Shown here in pieces: positions 7,301 through 18,002 of a DNA stretch of 64,000 nucleotides; the first letter of the stretch is position 1, and every line of letters starts with the position of its first letter. The stretch lies in contig NZ_AP021875.1 of assembly GCF_009688965.1 (NCBI RefSeq), positions 186,001 to 250,000 on the forward strand, written 5' to 3'. The notes under the pieces were generated by a model. The model searched no databases. It was not told where the DNA came from and worked only from the letters and a program-made list of their open reading frames with translations. The position numbers were made by a program, and so were the translations under genes. Origin of the DNA: Desulfosarcina widdelii (GTDB taxonomy: Bacteria; Desulfobacterota; Desulfobacteria; Desulfobacterales; Desulfosarcinaceae).

Positions 7301-8065
7301 TCATTTCTGGCCATACCGTCTGGCAAGGTCTGCATAGCACAGTCCGCTGCCGCCGAAAATGTCCAGAGCGCTGCCCACGGTAAAATCGATCTTGCCGTTG
7401 CCCAATGATTCGATCTGATCGATGTCTTTTTGACTGGAAATGCCTCCGGCATAGGTGATCGGCAAACCCTGCCAGCGTCCCAGGTAGGCAACCAGCTCGG
7501 TTTCGATGCCGGCGCAGCGGCCTTCCACGTCCACGGCATGAATGAGAAACTCATCGCAGTAAGCGGCGAGGCGTTCCATGAAAGCATAGGTGACCGCCTC
7601 TTTCGTAAAGGTCTGCCAGCGGTCGGTGGCCACCAGGTATTCGTCGTCCCGCCGGCGGCAGCTCAAATCCAGCACCAGACGCGACTTGCCGATGCGTTGG
7701 ATCAGTTTTTCCAGCCGGGCCATATCGATCCTGCCGTCGTGGAACACCCAGGAGGTGACGATGACATGGCTGGCACCGGCATCCAGCCACTCGGCAGCAT
7801 TGTCGGCGTTGATTCCCCCGCCCACCTGCAGCCCCCCCGGCCATTGGGAAAGAGCCGAGAGGGCCGCCTCGGCGTTGCCCGGACCTAACTGGATGACGTG
7901 CCCCCCTGTAAGCCCGTCCCGGCGATAGAGATCGGCGAACCATGTGGAGGGTTTCCCGGCTTGAAAGTTGGTCGTCGGGCCTTCGTCCGGCTCGTCGGAC
8001 AACGTGGCGCCCACAATTTGTTTGACTACACCGTCGTGAAGGTCGATGCAGGGGCGAAAACGCAT
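7301..8065 (-). CDS. hisA: eukaryote-type ProFAR isomerase (HisA)
   Basis: Phosphoribosylformimino-5-aminoimidazole carboxamide ribotide isomerase, fourth step of histidine synthesis: an Amadori rearrangement that converts ProFAR to PRFAR. The 254 residues follow the fungal HIS6-type form rather than ordinary bacterial HisA: RPCIDLHDGVVKQIVG, HVIQLGPGNAEAA, LQVGGGINADNAAEWLDAGA, VIVTSWVF, LVLDLSCR, FLIHAVDVEGRCAGI, YAGGISS and FTVGSALDIFGG. IDLH carries the expected N-terminal catalytic Asp and HAVDVEG the second. No other his gene is nearby, so it is a stand-alone locus. It ends 45 bp from the convergent fibronectin-like gene. Confidence 0.85.
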   Translation of the reverse strand: MRFRPCIDLHDGVVKQIVGATLSDEPDEGPTTNFQAGKPSTWFADLYRRDGLTGGHVIQLGPGNAEAALSALSQWPGGLQVGGGINADNAAEWLDAGASHVIVTSWVFHDGRIDMARLEKLIQRIGKSRLVLDLSCRRRDDEYLVATDRWQTFTKEAVTYAFMERLAAYCDEFLIHAVDVEGRCAGIETELVAYLGRWQGLPITYAGGISSQKDIDQIESLGNGKIDFTVGSALDIFGGSGLCYADLARRYGQK

Positions 8066-10940: not shown

Positions 10941-11630
10941 ATGAAAATCGATTCGGGACAATGGCAGCGAACTGTGATCGAGGGCGCTGCGGCACTGGCG
11001 ATCGAGGTGACCGATGACCAGGTCCGGGCCATGAACGCGCACGCCCGGCTGCTGCTGGAATGGAACCGGATCACCAATCTGACGGCCATTATCGATCCAA
11101 TGGAGGTGGCCGTCAAACACTATGTGGATTCCCTGGCCGCGGTTCTATGGATCGGCGAAGGGGTCCGCATTCTGGATGCCGGTTCCGGCGGCGGATTTCC
11201 CGGAATCCCGCTGAAGATCCTGCACCCTGAGCTTTCCATCACGCTGGTGGACAGCGTACGCAAAAAAGTCTCTTTTCTCAAACACGCCATCCGAACCATC
11301 GGTCTGGAGGGAATCGAGGCCGTCCACGGCCGGCTGGAAACGCTCGGCGAATCGCCCCGGTATCGCGGGGCCTTCGATATGGTGGTCTGCCGGGCATTTT
11401 CTTCGCTGGAAACGTTCGCCGAGCGCACAGCGGATTTTCTGGCTCCCGGCGGCAGCTTGCTGGCCCTGAAAGGCCCCCAGACCGATCATCCTCTCGAGGC
11501 CGCCGGAAGCGGAAGCACGATTCGTCTTGGTGGTCGATCTTTCACCATCCAGGTGAACAGCTATCAATTGCCGTTTTTGAACTTGCAGCGTCGGGCGGTG
11601 AGGCTGACACCGATGACGAAAGAGGGATGA
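10941..11630 (+). CDS. rsmG: 16S rRNA m7G527 methyltransferase RsmG
   Basis: SAM-dependent methyltransferase that makes 7-methylguanosine at 16S rRNA position 527. The 229 residues show the family pattern: LLLEWNRITNLTAI, HYVDSLA, the SAM-binding loop ILDAGSGGGFPGIPLKI, LVDSVRKKVSFLKHAI, and VVCRAFSSLETF, where the Arg-Ala-F segment is typical. The start at 10941 is preceded by AAGGAA. In many bacteria it sits beside mnmG/parA; here it stands alone and converges with the carB-like gene. Upstream 10,650-10,940 shows no gene or clear promoter. Confidence 0.9.
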   Translation: MKIDSGQWQRTVIEGAAALAIEVTDDQVRAMNAHARLLLEWNRITNLTAIIDPMEVAVKHYVDSLAAVLWIGEGVRILDAGSGGGFPGIPLKILHPELSITLVDSVRKKVSFLKHAIRTIGLEGIEAVHGRLETLGESPRYRGAFDMVVCRAFSSLETFAERTADFLAPGGSLLALKGPQTDHPLEAAGSGSTIRLGGRSFTIQVNSYQLPFLNLQRRAVRLTPMTKEG

Positions 11631-11717: not shown

Positions 11718-14700
11718 TTATCTCAGCGTCCGGGCATATGATTGCAGCGTGCACAGCATTTCCAGCCCCTGCTTGCTGGCCGCGATGCCTTTGGCTGCGG
11801 CCATGGCGCCCGCCGGGGTCGTAATGTTGGGGATGTTGTAGCGGATGGCGGTCTTGCGGATCAAAGCATCGTCCAATTGGCTTCGATGGCCGCTGGGCGT
11901 ATTGACCACCAGGGCGACCTCGCCGCTTTTAATGGCGTCCACCAGGTCGGGCCGGCCGAAACCGATCTTCTTGACCAGTTGGGAGGGTATCCCGTTTTTC
12001 CGGAGAAAGGCATGGGTGCCGCGGGTGGCCAGAATGCCGAATCCCATCTCGTTGAACAGCCGGGTGGGTTCGAGGATGCTGGGTTTGTCTTCGTCGGTGA
12101 CCGTGACCAGCAGATTCCCCCTCCCGGGCAGGCAGGGTCCGGCGGCTTGCTGGGAGCTGAAATAGGCCATGCCGAAGACCTCGGCCAGCGTCATCACTTG
12201 GCCGGTGGAGCGCATCTGGGGCCCCAAGAGGGGATCGGCCTGTGGAAAGACGTCGTAGGGGAAGACCGACGAACGAATGGCGCAGTAGGGCAGCAGGCGC
12301 CGGGGTAGATCCATTTCGTCCAGCGACCTGCCCAGCATGATATCCACCGCCCGCCGGGCCATGGGTATATCGCAGATTTTGGAAACCATCGGCAGGGTCC
12401 GGCAGGCCCAGGGACGGGCAGCCAATAGATAGACCGTGTCGTTGTATACGGCAAAGCGGGCATTGAGCAGTCCTTTGACATCGAGCTTCAGGGCGATTTT
12501 GCGGATGTAGGCGTTGATGGTTTCAATATGGCGCGGCGGTGTGCTGTAGGGGGGCGTCACCAGGGAAGAATCCCCCGAATGCACGCCGGCCAGTTCGATA
12601 TGCTCCATGACGGCCGGCACGTAAACCGATTTTCCGTCGCACAGTGCGTCGGCCTCCAACTCGATGGCGTATTCCAGAAACTGCTCGATCAGCATGGGGG
12701 CGTCTTCCGACAAGTTAGTTCCCAACAGGTCCTGTTCTAGCATGTCGGCATCCATGATGACGGCGTACCGGTTGCGATGCCGATCCGCCGGAACGCTGAC
12801 CACCAGGGGAAAGCCGATGGATTCGGCCAGATCCATGGCCGCTTCGGGGCTGGCGGCCTTGCCGATGGAGGGGTGGGGGATGCCCATTTCGGTGAGCAGG
12901 CCGGAAAAACGCAGACGATCCTGGGACAGCGCCACCTGCTCTCGGGCGGTACCCAGTACCGTGAATCCGGCGGATTCCAGATTTTCCGCCTGGTCCATGG
13001 CTGCATAGCCGCCGAACTGGAGAATGATTCCATCGGGCTTTTCATGGCCGCAGACCGCCTTGAGATCAGGGGCCGTCAGGGGCGCTACGTAGGTTCGGTC
13101 GGCATCGTCCAAACCGCCAGCCACGGCCGGGTTGCTGTTTACCAGGATGGACCGGCGACCGGCTTTTTGCAGGCGCCGGGCGGCGTGGGCGCAGCAGTGA
13201 TCTAACTCGATGCCGTGACCGATGCGGCCGGCACCCGGTCCTGCAATGAGTATGCTTTTGCCCATGGGACTGTGGGGAGCTTTTTTATCCGCCAACGTGG
13301 TAAACCATATCCGGGACTGCCCGTTCGCATCGGCAGCCCGGGGAAGGACCTGGATTTCGGCCGCTTCGATCAATCCGGCGGCCGCCTCACCGGAAATGTT
13401 CAACAGACGGGCCAGACCGGCTTCGTTCAATCCGGCTTCAACGGCCTTGCCGATCAGTTTCGGTGAAGGAGGTTGGGTCTCCGGGTTAGCCAGTTGGATC
13501 TCCAGGCTCGCCAGGACGGCCAGTTCACGGAACCATTTTATGTCAATGCCGGTGGAAGTGCTCAGGTCTCCTGGCCGGGCTCCTTTTTTCAGGGCCTCGT
13601 GGAGGATGGCCAGGCAATCCGGTGAGGGGGGAACCAACCGCTGCATCAGGTCGTCGAGGGGGATCGACGTCCATTCCGGCCGCATTCCCAACAGGTGGTG
13701 GTACGGCATTCGGCAGCGTTCGGCCTTCAACAGGGCTTCCAGGAGGCTGCTTCCTATCCCCATAACCTCGCCCGTTGACTTCATGCGGGCGTTCAGGGCT
13801 TCGATTTCCCCTCCGAAACGTTCGAATTCCCAGCGCGGCAGACGAACGGCCACGATTTTTCCATTCATGATGGACGCAATCCCTGCAGGTTCTTTTTCCG
13901 GCGCATCGTCTCCCAGAATATCGTCTAAGCCAGCGCCCATACACAATCGGGCGTGGACCGCGGCCAGATCGACGCCGAAGGACCTGGCGCAAAAGGCGCT
14001 CATCCGGGAAAACCAGGGATTGACGGACAGTACGCGCACCGGACGGCCGCCCGGAGCGACGGCGAATTTCACGTGAAGGATTCCGGCGGCGCCCATGCGT
14101 TCGGCCACTTTGCAGGCCGTATCAAAGATCTGCCGGCAGGTGGCTGTATCGAGGGTCAACGGTGGGATAGCGGCCATTGAATCGCCGCTGTGAATGCCAA
14201 CCGGCTCCATGTTTTCTGCAATGGCAACCGGCTGCATACGATTGTCCGCGTCGCGCAGCAGTTCCACTTCCACTTCTCGATGGTCGGACAGCACCTCTTC
14301 GATGCGCAGCGGTTCGATTTCTTCCGAAGGCAGGCGTCCTGCGGATACCAGTTGGCGCAGTTCCTCGACGTTGTATACGATGCCCTGACGCTGCCGGTCG
14401 GCAAGCGGCGCTGCGCGCACGAATACCGGATATCCGATAGCTTCGGCCGCCGCTGCAGCGGCGGCCATGCGGGTTACACAGCGGCCGTCCGGGGTGGGCA
14501 GACCGAGCTGGCCGGCGCAATCAAATAGCGCCGAAGGGTCGCCCATCATCGCCAGGGTTTCCGGTGTGGTCCCCAACAGGCGAATGCTCTTTTTTTCCAG
14601 CAGGCCGGAGTCGACCAACGCTTTGGCCAACCCCATGGCCGTCGGACCGCCAACGGTGGGCAGCAGGCCGTCGGGGCGTTCCCGCAAGAGGACCTCCTTG

Positions 14701-14924
14701 AGGGACTGCACGGTCAAAGGCACCATGTAGGTGCGATCGGCGGTTTCCATGTCCGTGGCCAGGGCCGACGGATCGCAGTGCACCATCACCGTTTCGACCC
14801 CGGCATCTCTAAGAATACGGCAGGCACGGCAGGCCGCGTCGTCAAAGGCGCCTGTCTGTCCGATTTTGACCGGACCACATCCGATGATGAGTACTTTTTG
14901 CAAGGGCGGGGTAGGCATTTTCAC
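11718..14924 (-). CDS. carbamoyl-phosphate synthase large chain homologue, catalytically degenerate (CarB-like)
   Basis: 1068 residues, full CarB length, with the complete layout: N-terminal synthetase half (~1-400), oligomerisation region, second synthetase half (~550-935) and C-terminal MGS-like allosteric domain (~940-1060, NLLVTVTDEDKPSI...VVNTPSGH). Homology is clear (LIIGCGPVKIGQTGAFD; GIHSGDS; GIELDHCC; AGVHSGDS; DPLLGPQMRSTGQVM). Residues needed for catalysis in E. coli CarB are changed in both halves. The Gly-rich ATP loop (PSFTMGGSGGG) reads APLADRQRQG, and the second loop (PSYVLGG) reads VPADRHR. Metal ligands Gln285/Glu299 become Lys/Ser, and Gln829/Glu841/Asn843 become Arg/Ala/Arg. 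In both halves the conserved NPR Arg is Trp. GGQT motifs are GGPT and GGYA. The intact frame argues against simple decay. It is probably a pseudoenzyme or an enzyme with another activity, not the working CarB. Confidence 0.85.
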   Translation of the reverse strand: MKMPTPPLQKVLIIGCGPVKIGQTGAFDDAACRACRILRDAGVETVMVHCDPSALATDMETADRTYMVPLTVQSLKEVLLRERPDGLLPTVGGPTAMGLAKALVDSGLLEKKSIRLLGTTPETLAMMGDPSALFDCAGQLGLPTPDGRCVTRMAAAAAAAEAIGYPVFVRAAPLADRQRQGIVYNVEELRQLVSAGRLPSEEIEPLRIEEVLSDHREVEVELLRDADNRMQPVAIAENMEPVGIHSGDSMAAIPPLTLDTATCRQIFDTACKVAERMGAAGILHVKFAVAPGGRPVRVLSVNPWFSRMSAFCARSFGVDLAAVHARLCMGAGLDDILGDDAPEKEPAGIASIMNGKIVAVRLPRWEFERFGGEIEALNARMKSTGEVMGIGSSLLEALLKAERCRMPYHHLLGMRPEWTSIPLDDLMQRLVPPSPDCLAILHEALKKGARPGDLSTSTGIDIKWFRELAVLASLEIQLANPETQPPSPKLIGKAVEAGLNEAGLARLLNISGEAAAGLIEAAEIQVLPRAADANGQSRIWFTTLADKKAPHSPMGKSILIAGPGAGRIGHGIELDHCCAHAARRLQKAGRRSILVNSNPAVAGGLDDADRTYVAPLTAPDLKAVCGHEKPDGIILQFGGYAAMDQAENLESAGFTVLGTAREQVALSQDRLRFSGLLTEMGIPHPSIGKAASPEAAMDLAESIGFPLVVSVPADRHRNRYAVIMDADMLEQDLLGTNLSEDAPMLIEQFLEYAIELEADALCDGKSVYVPAVMEHIELAGVHSGDSSLVTPPYSTPPRHIETINAYIRKIALKLDVKGLLNARFAVYNDTVYLLAARPWACRTLPMVSKICDIPMARRAVDIMLGRSLDEMDLPRRLLPYCAIRSSVFPYDVFPQADPLLGPQMRSTGQVMTLAEVFGMAYFSSQQAAGPCLPGRGNLLVTVTDEDKPSILEPTRLFNEMGFGILATRGTHAFLRKNGIPSQLVKKIGFGRPDLVDAIKSGEVALVVNTPSGHRSQLDDALIRKTAIRYNIPNITTPAGAMAAAKGIAASKQGLEMLCTLQSYARTLR

Positions 14925-15121
14925 TCCTCAAAGATTGACGGCGTTTTAAAACGACGAAAACGCGTTGACCTTTCCTGACGGCGGTGGGCCTCAGGGGGGC
15001 CGGATGGCCGTCATTTCGGGCGCGCTGTTTTGTAGAACCATGACAAAACGAAAAACTTAATATTGAACCAAAAAGCGCCGGTTTTCAAGCGGCAATATCG
15101 ATGGGCCGCCGTTTCTATTCC

Positions 15122-15188: not shown

Positions 15189-18002
15189 ATGGATTACAAG
15201 AAGACCTTGAATCTCCCCAAGACCGGTTTTCCGATGAAGGCCAACCTGGCCGGCCGGGAACCCGAGCAGCTCAACCGATGGGATTCCATGGGACTGTACG
15301 CACAGATTCGCAAGGCATCCGAAGGAAAGCCCGCATTTACGCTGCACGACGGCCCGCCCTATGCCAACGGCCATATCCATATTGGTACGGCGATGAACAA
15401 GATCCTCAAGGACATCATCGTTCGTTCCCGGCAGATGGCCGGTTTCGATGCCGCCTACGTACCGGGATGGGACTGCCACGGCCTGCCCATAGAGCACAAT
15501 GTGGACAAGGAACTGGGCAGCAAGAAAAAGGAGATGACCCAGGCCCAGGTGCGGCGCAAATGCCGGGCCTACGCGGAAAAATTCATCGATATTCAGCGTG
15601 ACGAGTTCAAGCGCCTTGGCGTGATGGGTGAATGGGACAACCCCTACCTGACGATGAACTACCGCTATGAAGCGACCATCGCCAGGGAGTGCTGCAAATT
15701 CGCCCTGAACGGGAGCCTGTTTCTCAGCAAAAAGCCCATTCACTGGTGCTGCAGCTGCAAGACCGCCCTGGCCGAAGCCGAAATCGAATACCATGACGAA
15801 ACCTCGCCTTCGGTTTACGTCAAATTCGCCCTGAAAGACGATCCGGCGGACATCGCCGCCCCTTTGGACGGAAAGCAGGTATCGGTGGTGATCTGGACCA
15901 CCACCCCGTGGACTCTGCCGGCCAACCTGGCCATCGCCCTGCACCCCGATTTCGAATACGCGGCCGTCGAGACCGGCGACGGACAGGTGTTCATTCTGGC
16001 CCGGGAACTGGTGGACGCCTGCATGCAGACCTTCGGCATTGCCGATTACCGCATCATCGCCGATCTTGCGGCCCGCGACCTGGAAAACCGGCGTTGCAGC
16101 CACCCCTTCTATAATCGCGATTCGCTGATTATTCTTGGCGATCATGTGACCCTGGAAGCGGGCACCGGCTGCGTTCACACTGCCCCCGGCCACGGTCGCG
16201 AAGACTATGACGTCGGCCTGCAGTACGGGCTGGACGCCTATTCCCCAGTGAACGACAACGGCGTTTTCACCGAAGATGTGGGGCAATTCGCCGGGCAGTT
16301 CGTTTTCAAGGCCAACGAAAACATCAACCGGCTCCTGGAAGAAAAGGGGGTTCTGCTGGCCAAAGAGGAGATCGGCCACAGCTATCCCCATTGCTGGCGC
16401 TGTAAAAAACCGGTGATCTTCCGGGCCACGCCCCAGTGGTTCATTTCCATGGAGAAGACCGGGCTGCGGAAAAAATCCCTGGAAGAGATCGATCGGGTCA
16501 AATGGATTCCCCACTGGGGGCGTGAGCGCATTTACGGCATGATCGAAAACCGGCCGGACTGGTGCGTTTCGCGCCAGCGGGCCTGGGGAGTGCCCATCAC
16601 GGTGTTCATCTGCGAAAAATGCGATACCGTCCACATGGACGAAGCCGCCATGAACCGCATTTTCGAAGAATTCGCCGCCCATGGGGCCGACGTTTGGTTT
16701 GAAAAAGAGGCCGCCGAACTGCTGCCAGATGGGGCCGTGTGCAGCAACTGCGGCAGCCCTTCTTTCACCAAGGAAACGGACATCCTGGACGTCTGGTTCG
16801 ATTCCGGAGTCAGCCACGCGGCCGTCCTGGAAGACCGGGACTATCTGCATTGGCCGGCGGACCTCTACCTGGAGGGCAGCGATCAGCATCGGGGCTGGTT
16901 TCACAGCGCCCTGCTCACGGCGGTGGGCTTGCGGGGGCAGGCGCCTTATCGCAGTGTGTTGACCCACGGTTTCGTGGTGGATGCCGACGGCAAGAAGATG
17001 TCCAAGTCCCTGGGCAATGTGGTGGCCCCCAAAACGGTGATCGACAAATACGGGGCCGAAATCCTTCGCATGTGGGTTTCGGCATCGGACTACCGGGACG
17101 ATGTGAGAATTTCCGACAGTATTCTCAAACAGCTCAGCGATGCCTACCGCCGCATTCGCAACACCAGCCGGTTTCTGCTAGGCAATCTCAACGACTTCTC
17201 TCCGGAGACTGACAGCCTTGCCCCGGAAAAGATGCTGGAAATTGACCGCTTTGCCCTGCACAAGCTTCAATTGCTGGTGGAGCGGGCCCTGAAAGCCTAC
17301 GACACCTACGAGTTCCACGTGATCTATCATCGGCTGTACAACTATTGCACCGTCGATCTATCTTCGTTTTATCTGGATATTCTCAAGGACCGGCTTTACA
17401 CCAGTCCGCCGGCTTCCGTAGAGCGGCGCAGCGCCCAGACCGCCATGTACCGGATCCTGGATGCCATGGCCCGCATCATGGCCCCCATCATGCCGTTTAC
17501 AGCCGAAGAGATCTGGGAGCACATGCCGGCGGTGAAGGACAAGGCCGACAGCATCCACCTGGCGGCATTCCCCGATCCGGACCCGGCGTTGAAAGACGAA
17601 TCCCTGGCCAGCAAATGGGAAACGCTGATCCGGGTGCGCGCCGAGGTGACCCGGGCCCTGGAAAAGGCACGGGCCGACAAAGTCATCGGCCATTCGCTGG
17701 ATTCGGCGGTGACTGTGGGTCTGTCCGACGAACTGGCCGGTGTCATGGCGGATTTTGAAGACGATCTGCGTGCTATTTTGATCGTATCGCGGGCGAACAT
17801 GACGAAAGGGGAGATTCCCGGCGCCTATGCCGGACAGGAAACCGAAGGCGTGTGGGTGAAGGTGGAGCCGGCCGGCGGCGAAAAATGCCAGCGCTGCTGG
17901 GTCTATGACGACAGTGTGGGAACCATTGACGGCCATCCCACCATCTGCAACCGCTGCGCCGGCGCCCTGGCCCGGATGGACGTTCCAGCGGCGGCCGACT
18001 GA
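15189..18002 (+). CDS. ileS: isoleucyl-tRNA synthetase
   Basis: Class I aminoacyl-tRNA synthetase that charges tRNA-Ile. 937 residues, the normal bacterial length. The HIGH motif is HIHIG ([15 protein letters not shown]) near residue 60, followed by [10 protein letters not shown]. The CP1 editing domain lies at ~200-400 ([33 protein letters not shown]). KMSKS is intact ([11 protein letters not shown]) near residue 600. The C-terminal zinc site has CQRCW and CNRCA. This is the form with the C-terminal zinc finger found in most bacteria. ATG 15189 has CGGAGGC before it. lspA follows 10 bp later, a common pairing. Confidence 0.97.

Follow-up and report, generated by a model that had tools for sequence, protein, structure and literature searches.

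Background

Pseudoenzymes, of which the pseudokinases are an example, retain a conserved fold under selection after their catalytic and metal-binding residues have been lost. In carbamoyl-phosphate synthetase, the closest described system to the gene treated here, the E. coli CarB protein carries an allosteric MGS domain that binds uridine monophosphate (UMP) and inosine monophosphate (IMP). Its active-site residues are taken here to be Gln285, Glu299, Asn301 and Arg303 in the N-terminal half and Gln829, Glu841, Asn843 and Arg845 in the C-terminal half, with Gln285 presumably a metal ligand. We know of no pseudoenzyme of carbamoyl-phosphate synthetase, and a search of the open-licence PMC literature found none. 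A candidate is present in Desulfosarcina widdelii, within the window, a 64,000-nt stretch at 186-250 kb of the 7.30-Mb, single-contig genome. This gene, a degenerate CarB paralogue for which the working name CarB3 was coined, has lost key residues in both catalytic halves and, judged from these losses, is almost certainly not a working carbamoyl-phosphate synthetase. The pattern suggests an enzyme turned into a regulator, with its nucleotide-sensing end preserved.

An intact frame with two degenerate active sites

A CarB-like frame of 1068 residues, proposed by an earlier reading of the sequence alone, was confirmed. The open reading frame (ORF) listing of the window gives 1068 open codons at 11718-14924 of the minus strand; the plus-strand reading of this interval contains 11 stops. 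An end-to-end alignment matches the product to E. coli CarB (605 bits over residues 7-1050). Translation most likely begins at ATG 14918, which would give a protein of 1066 residues and has GAGGAG 5 bases ahead of it. An AAGGAG or GAGGAG also precedes the start in nine of ten orthologues compared, with AAGGAT in G024 (genomes are numbered G000, the window genome, and upward). The sole other CarB place found in the window genome lies at 3.67 Mb; this is the second, canonical carB for which the sequence-only reading had proposed a search, with carA directly upstream and all diagnostic residues, including the ligands, intact.

Every substitution listed in that reading proved correct on alignment. 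In half 1 of the window protein, Gln285 is replaced by Lys (K286) and Glu299 by Ser (S300); in half 2, Gln829 is replaced by Arg (R823), Glu841 by Ala (A835), and Asn843 by Arg (R837). The arginines of both NPR motifs have become Trp (W304 and W839, codons TGG), the GGQT motifs read GGPT and GGYA, and both Gly-rich ATP loops are altered. Arg169, Glu215, His243, Asn301, Glu761, and His788 are retained, and end-to-end alignments found no intact active sites elsewhere in the protein.

The same losses are seen across the 11 full-length CarB3 proteins over which residues were counted (the fragments of G013, G022, G025, and G028 were excluded, and the G013 copy is not in the cross-genome residue table). 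Glu299 and Asn843 are lost in all 11, Gln285 is Lys or Arg in all 11, and Gln829 is Arg in all 11. No full-length copy has both glycines of an ATP loop, in either half. Arg303 is retained in four and Arg845 in one, and Asp791 is present in every copy. At ten positions, 10 or all of the 11 copies share a residue that hardly occurs elsewhere; these include R823 (Gln829, 11/11), E747 (Asp753, 11/11), and R884 (Lys891, 10/11). Since matching replacements recur in orthologues, the residue changes are not due to chance; and since these orthologues come from independent assemblies, a chimera or frameshift artefact is ruled out.

The earlier reading had also taken the parallel Arg-to-Trp changes as a sign of selection, an argument that proved weak on comparison within the genus. 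Trp occupies the C-half site in all seven full-length members and the N-half site in five of the seven; the N-half codon is CGG in G012 and GGC in G014. A single transition turns CGG into TGG. The two changes differ in age and need no special explanation.

Distribution of CarB3 and its relatives

As that reading had proposed, the variant was sought in related genomes. The family set comprised 30 genomes, including Desulfosarcina alkanivorans, Desulfosarcina cetonica (G013), and metagenome bins. CarB3 is present in 15 of these (G000, G005, G012-G014, G018-G020, G022-G025, and G027-G029), which span six genera as labelled. Single full-length frames make up 11 of the 15 loci. The remainder are a draft copy with two frameshifts (G013), a copy broken at a run of ten Ns (G025), and two copies cut by contig ends (G022 and G028). 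The family has three kinds of CarB: canonical carB; an intact second CarB (CarB2), about 40% identical with the window protein; and CarB3, which is degenerate.

After antisense frames had been filtered out of the residue table, 47 sequences were retained, of which 41 full-length ones entered the tree; L087 was dropped from the second tree as a duplicate of L019, and the fragmentary CarB3 of G013, G022, G025, and G028 were left out of the full-length and domain trees. CarB3 and its nearest relative, CarB2, branch together, apart from canonical carB (support 1.000). In trees of 10 sequences CarB3 forms one clade each time, with support of 0.999 for the full-length protein, 0.987 for the MGS domain, 0.965 for the C-half, and 0.981 for the N-half.

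Outside the family, the diagnostic residues are intact in all 70 second CarBs examined across the order (28 + 42), which were taken from the best-scoring matches, a choice that favours intact copies; the order searches (146 and 389 genomes) covered best matches only, so that a weak CarB3 elsewhere could be missed. Lower-scoring second CarBs that were legible are likewise intact, except for the half-dead ones described below. One fragment outside the 70 but among the best-scoring matches (L182, in G106) has Ser in place of Asn301.

Half-dead proteins were found in two of six genomes of another family, f11 (L146:7258-10461 in G104, and L197, G193:C1:1697418-1700555). In these proteins the half-1 metal ligands are retained and half 2 is dead, including a Gln829-to-Arg change. 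Arg169 is His in both, and so half 1 may be impaired too. The pair is joined to CarB3 by the full-length and C-half trees and kept apart from it by the MGS and N-half trees. Long-branch attraction is likely, and the f11 pair is possibly an independent case.

Purifying selection and a preserved MGS domain

Selection on CarB3 was estimated by pairwise counts as the ratio of nonsynonymous to synonymous substitution rates (dN/dS). Six within-genus pairs gave 0.172-0.287, with a highest upper 95% bound of 0.336. The corresponding values are 0.055-0.097 for canonical carB (three pairs) and, for neighbouring genes in the pair G000-G023, 0.077 (ileS), 0.155 (HisA), 0.216 (holA), and 0.25 (rsmG). The CarB3 frame is therefore under purifying selection, less constrained than canonical carB, yet within the range of its neighbours. 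It combines purifying selection with lost catalytic residues, as a pseudoenzyme does. Apart from the two frameshifts in the G013 draft, the relaxed selection and broken frames of a pseudogene are not its pattern. The earlier suggestion of a retained pseudoenzyme with an MGS domain is supported: canonical carAB is present elsewhere in the genome, orthologues keep the frame, and dN/dS is well below 1.

The constraint is unevenly spread. In all six pairs dN/dS is lower in the MGS domain than in residues 1-925 (0.043-0.181 vs 0.192-0.303). In four domain-by-domain comparisons the oligomerisation region is always the loosest (0.30-0.53), and the MGS domain is the tightest in three, with pre-domain 2 lower in G000-G012. 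The same picture emerges from 388 columns conserved across 37 CarB2, 18 canonical sequences, and the E. coli sequence. Retention of these columns in the 11 CarB3 is highest in the MGS domain, at 97% (23 columns). It stands at 66% for ATP-grasp 2, at 51% for both ATP-grasp 1 and its pre-domain, at 43% for pre-domain 2, and at 42% for the oligomerisation region. Between G000 and G027, canonical carB is 88% identical in ATP-grasp 1 and 61% in the MGS domain; for CarB3 these values are 28% and 55%. The Pfam MGS model gives 79.8 bits for both CarB3 and the canonical protein, whereas CPSase_L_D2 gives 123.6 vs 370.7 bits, and the D3 model gives 18.6 (cut-off 26.6) vs 81.3 bits. Loss in CarB3 is thus domain-specific, with the MGS domain preserved.

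Within this domain K954, T974, G976, T977, K993, and N1015 are retained in all 11 CarB3, as is T1042. We take K954, T974, G976, and N1015 to line the nucleotide pocket. In E. coli, T977 and K993 are tied to UMP inhibition and binding, and T1042 has a role in ornithine binding (PMC6245113).

An AlphaFold2 model of CarB3, built with 11 sequences, has a predicted local distance difference test score (pLDDT) of 82.7 and a predicted template modelling score of 0.86. The two former Gly-rich loops, residues 174-176 and 713-718, have pLDDT values under 50, as do four other stretches. Among PDB structures the model is most similar to E. coli CarB (1a9x, template modelling score 0.93), a match partly expected, since six CarB-like viral-contig sequences were in the model alignment. 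CarB3 is thus predicted to keep the carbamoyl-phosphate synthetase fold.

Genomic neighbourhood

The features of the locus, together with related loci elsewhere, are collected in Table 1. The genes on either side are taken to be rsmG and ileS.

Table 1. Features of the CarB3 locus (positions in the window) and associated genes at other loci
Feature	Position	Strand	Basis
CarB3, CarB-family pseudoenzyme gene	11718..14918	-	ORF (listed 11718-14924 from GTG; ATG 14918 preferred), family matches, ribosome-binding site
Shine-Dalgarno-like GAGGAG, 5 nt ahead of ATG 14918	14924..14929	-	sequence
ATP-grasp domain 1, residues 127-395, degenerate	13740..14546	-	Pfam, alignment, column conservation
Former Gly-rich ATP loop, half 1: AAPLADR (E. 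coli PSFTMGG)	14394..14414	-	alignment; model pLDDT <50 at residues 174-176
K286 codon (E. coli Gln285)	14067..14069	-	alignment; Lys/Arg in 11/11 full-length copies
W304 codon TGG (E. coli Arg303)	14013..14015	-	codon comparison
Oligomerisation-domain region, residues 396-548, most diverged part	13281..13739	-	Pfam D3 18.6 bits (cut-off 26.6), dN/dS, column conservation
ATP-grasp domain 2, residues 673-925, degenerate	12150..12908	-	alignment, column conservation
Former Gly-rich ATP loop, half 2: VPADRHR (E. coli PSYVLGG)	12774..12794	-	alignment; model pLDDT <50 at residues 713-718
R823 codon (E. coli Gln829)	12456..12458	-	Arg in 11/11 full-length CarB3 and both half-dead proteins
W839 codon TGG (E. 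coli Arg845)	12408..12410	-	codon comparison
MGS (allosteric) domain, residues 926-1068, nucleotide pocket conserved	11721..12149	-	Pfam, pocket residues, dN/dS
rsmG, convergent neighbour	10941..11630	+	ORF listing, neighbour comparison
ileS, divergent neighbour	15189..18002	+	ORF listing, neighbour comparison
HD_3/YfbR-like genes	L053:7572-8249 (start probably first ATG, codon 30), L054:11915-12586, L059:101-694, G014:C1:1070641-1071234	same strand as CarB3	
CarB2 + PurF-like loci	L066-L070, L076-L078, L093, L094, L097 and others		
PurF-like gene, window genome	G000:C1:4187550-4188947 (L128)		

Both rsmG (convergent) and ileS (divergent) flank CarB3 in six of the 15 genomes (G000, G012, G023, G024, G025, and G027), with one extra gene between CarB3 and ileS in G024. 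Another eight show one flank only: ileS in G014, G018, G019, and G020, and rsmG in G005, G022, G028 (3.3 kb away), and G029. In G014, G018, and G029 the available stretch does not contain the missing flank; in G005, G019, G020, and G028 the contig ends; in G022 the N-terminal part of CarB3 lies on a contig with other genes upstream. Neither gene was seen beside the G013 copy. CarB2 also lies near rsmG, again convergent, in G054, G041, and G099, which belong to other families; ileS is on another contig there. CarB3 may have decayed in place from a CarB2 near rsmG, and duplication is equally possible. In G017 the rsmG-ileS gap is about 0.26 kb and holds no CarB trace. In G011 and G001 (genus g2) the slot is filled by an unrelated long repeat-rich protein (L244:3238-6222 and L245:5885-9046).

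In four genomes (G012, G013, G014, and G023) an HD_3/YfbR-like gene immediately precedes CarB3 and has the same orientation. Pfam HD_3 scores are 189-194 bits overall (192.5 in G023, 189.2 in G012, and 193.8 in G013). A YfbR-like 5'-deoxynucleotidase model gives 40-50 bits, and the NCBIfam 5'-deoxynucleotidase model stays far below its cut-off (23-36 vs 122). It is separated from CarB3 by about 20 bp in G023, by about 50 bp in G014 and G013, and by about 150 bp in G012. These four upstream copies are the only family matches to the gene at 76% identity or more. A link of CarB3 to nucleotide metabolism through this gene would be guilt by association and no more. A possible nucleotidase remnant in the window (tblastn match at 15000-15098) was rejected: it matches the G023 frame upstream of its first Met and aligns with a conserved region before ileS in eight genomes, including G017, which has no CarB3.

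No carA lies beside CarB3 in the window genome, whose one carA match is at the canonical copy. At E 1e-20, a single carA match was obtained in 27 of the 30 family genomes, two adjacent pieces in G016, and none in G005; in G001 there are matches at two loci, the second of them next to the additional carB of that genome. This second carA-carB pair (L071 / L042, G001:C24) is intact. CarB2 of the order often adjoins a class II amidotransferase resembling PurF (184 bits with TIGR01134, cut-off 350), which perhaps serves as its ammonia source in place of CarA. The PurF-like gene occurs without CarB2 in G000, G018, G019, and G024. As a fixed partner of CarB3 the protein was rejected: it is present in 15 of the 30 family genomes but lacking in nine of the 15 with CarB3.

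An Rfam search of window positions 5000-30000 found no RNA element at gathering scores. A promoter-like site at 15088-15059 lies in the conserved region before ileS; such sites occur at about the number expected by chance (2 found, 1.0 expected). Elsewhere in the window, at 7301-8065 of the minus strand, a eukaryotic-type HisA is encoded in this bacterium (TIGR02129, 356.5 bits, cut-off 229.3).

Interpretation

On balance it is somewhat probable that CarB3 is a carbamoyl-phosphate synthetase that has lost its activity and been retained as a regulator that senses nucleotides. Such a protein would be a pseudoenzyme related to intact CarB2. With the residues seen, normal binding of Mg-ATP would be impossible at either phosphorylation site, and no carbamoyl phosphate would be made. 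The MGS domain would still bind a UMP- or IMP-like nucleotide, and the protein would report the state of the nucleotide pool to a partner. One candidate partner is the YfbR-like nucleotidase encoded upstream in four genomes, a gene that is not at that place in the window genome. The basic residues at the metal-binding Gln sites (Lys or Arg in half 1, Arg in half 2) might conceivably replace the metal and lock the dead domains. A wider proposal is offered tentatively, as possible rather than probable: that a carbamoyl-phosphate synthetase became a stand-alone nucleotide receptor, its two kinase sites dying with Lys or Arg substituted for the metal-binding glutamines and its allosteric domain remaining under strong selection; that it is coupled in some species to a nucleotidase of the same operon; and that the same process has started independently, from the C-half, in a second family.

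Several observations weigh against the regulatory reading. Residues of the catalytic regions persist: Arg169, His243, and Glu761 in all 11 full-length copies, His788 in 10, Glu215 in nine, Asn301 in seven, and Glu841 in four; the G028 fragment has both loop 2 glycines. ATP-grasp 2 is under a fair degree of constraint (CarB3 copies have a mean identity of 57% there), so the MGS domain may not be the sole working part. Its lower dN/dS is blurred by intervals that overlap those of the rest in two of the six pairs (G000-G012 and G020-G019), and the pairs share sequences and are not independent. All 11 have lost Glu892, presumably a residue of the ornithine site. Half of the family genomes, some of them near-complete, are without CarB3. 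The HD_3 gene is not upstream of CarB3 in G000, G018, G019, or G020, and relatives of it with 50-55% identity are found in G002, G003, and G011, all without CarB3.

A regulator requires a partner, and the canonical enzyme is at hand in the genome; CarB3, having no carA of its own, could be a pseudo-subunit that joins CarA or CarB in mixed complexes and, acting as a decoy or as an additional allosteric subunit, adjusts the activity of the real enzyme. This is unlikely, though it deserves weight. E. coli CarA contacts the carboxyphosphate and oligomerisation domains (PMC6245113). CarB3 retains 51% and 42%, respectively, of the universally conserved columns there, and Pfam D3 falls below its cut-off in the window protein and in G027 (it passes in G012 and G024). 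The divergence of the CarA-contacting domains makes it less likely that CarB3 and CarA form a mixed complex. It is more doubtful still that CarB3 is an ATP-grasp enzyme repurposed for another substrate, as the sequence-only reading had allowed. The predicted fold is kept, and Arg169, Glu761, His243, and Asp791 are universal among full-length copies, with His788 in 10 of 11; these points would fit a surviving activity. However, every full-length copy has lost Glu299, Asn843, and, in each half, the metal-binding Gln; none has both glycines of a loop, and low-confidence stretches of the model include the former loops. The idea of a repurposed ATP-using protein is therefore not supported.

Two further explanations carry very little weight. 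That CarB3 is a decaying gene on its way out would account for its long branches, its absence from half of the family, the short G017 slot with no CarB trace, and the two frameshifts in the D. cetonica draft, and is nonetheless very improbable: dN/dS is far below 1, a selection result that contradicts decay within the genus; single full-length frames are found at 11 of the 15 loci, the G025 break is a run of ten Ns, and the G022 and G028 copies stop at contig ends; and the ribosome-binding site is retained in nine of ten. A divergent synthetase that still works is hardly credible. The laxer NCBIfam model NF003671 does call the window protein CarB (808 bits, cut-off 599), but the equivalog cut-off of TIGR01369 is not reached (729.4 vs 1027; the canonical copy scores 1524), and key ligands are altered in both halves.

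Significance and comparison with known systems

If the regulatory reading of CarB3 is true, an essential, multi-domain enzyme of central metabolism has lost both active sites and kept its allosteric domain, so that regulation has outlived catalysis. Since one standard annotation model, NF003671, names the protein CarB, others like it may hide in databases and mislead metabolic models. Intact CarB2 and the half-dead proteins also provide graded stages on which the order of the losses can be tested.

Compared with E. coli CarB (b0033; PDB 1a9x), CarB3 is alike in its full length, domain order, predicted fold, and MGS domain with its pocket residues; it differs in that both ATP-grasp sites are degenerate, the oligomerisation domain has diverged, and no carA is adjacent. 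CarB2 shares with CarB3 a common branch and, in G054, G041, and G099, the convergent position near rsmG. Unlike CarB3, CarB2 has its diagnostic residues intact (70/70 among best-scoring matches), and in those three genomes ileS is on another contig. The half-dead CarB of family f11 resembles CarB3 in its dead C-half and Gln829-to-Arg change, whereas its N-half metal ligands are kept.

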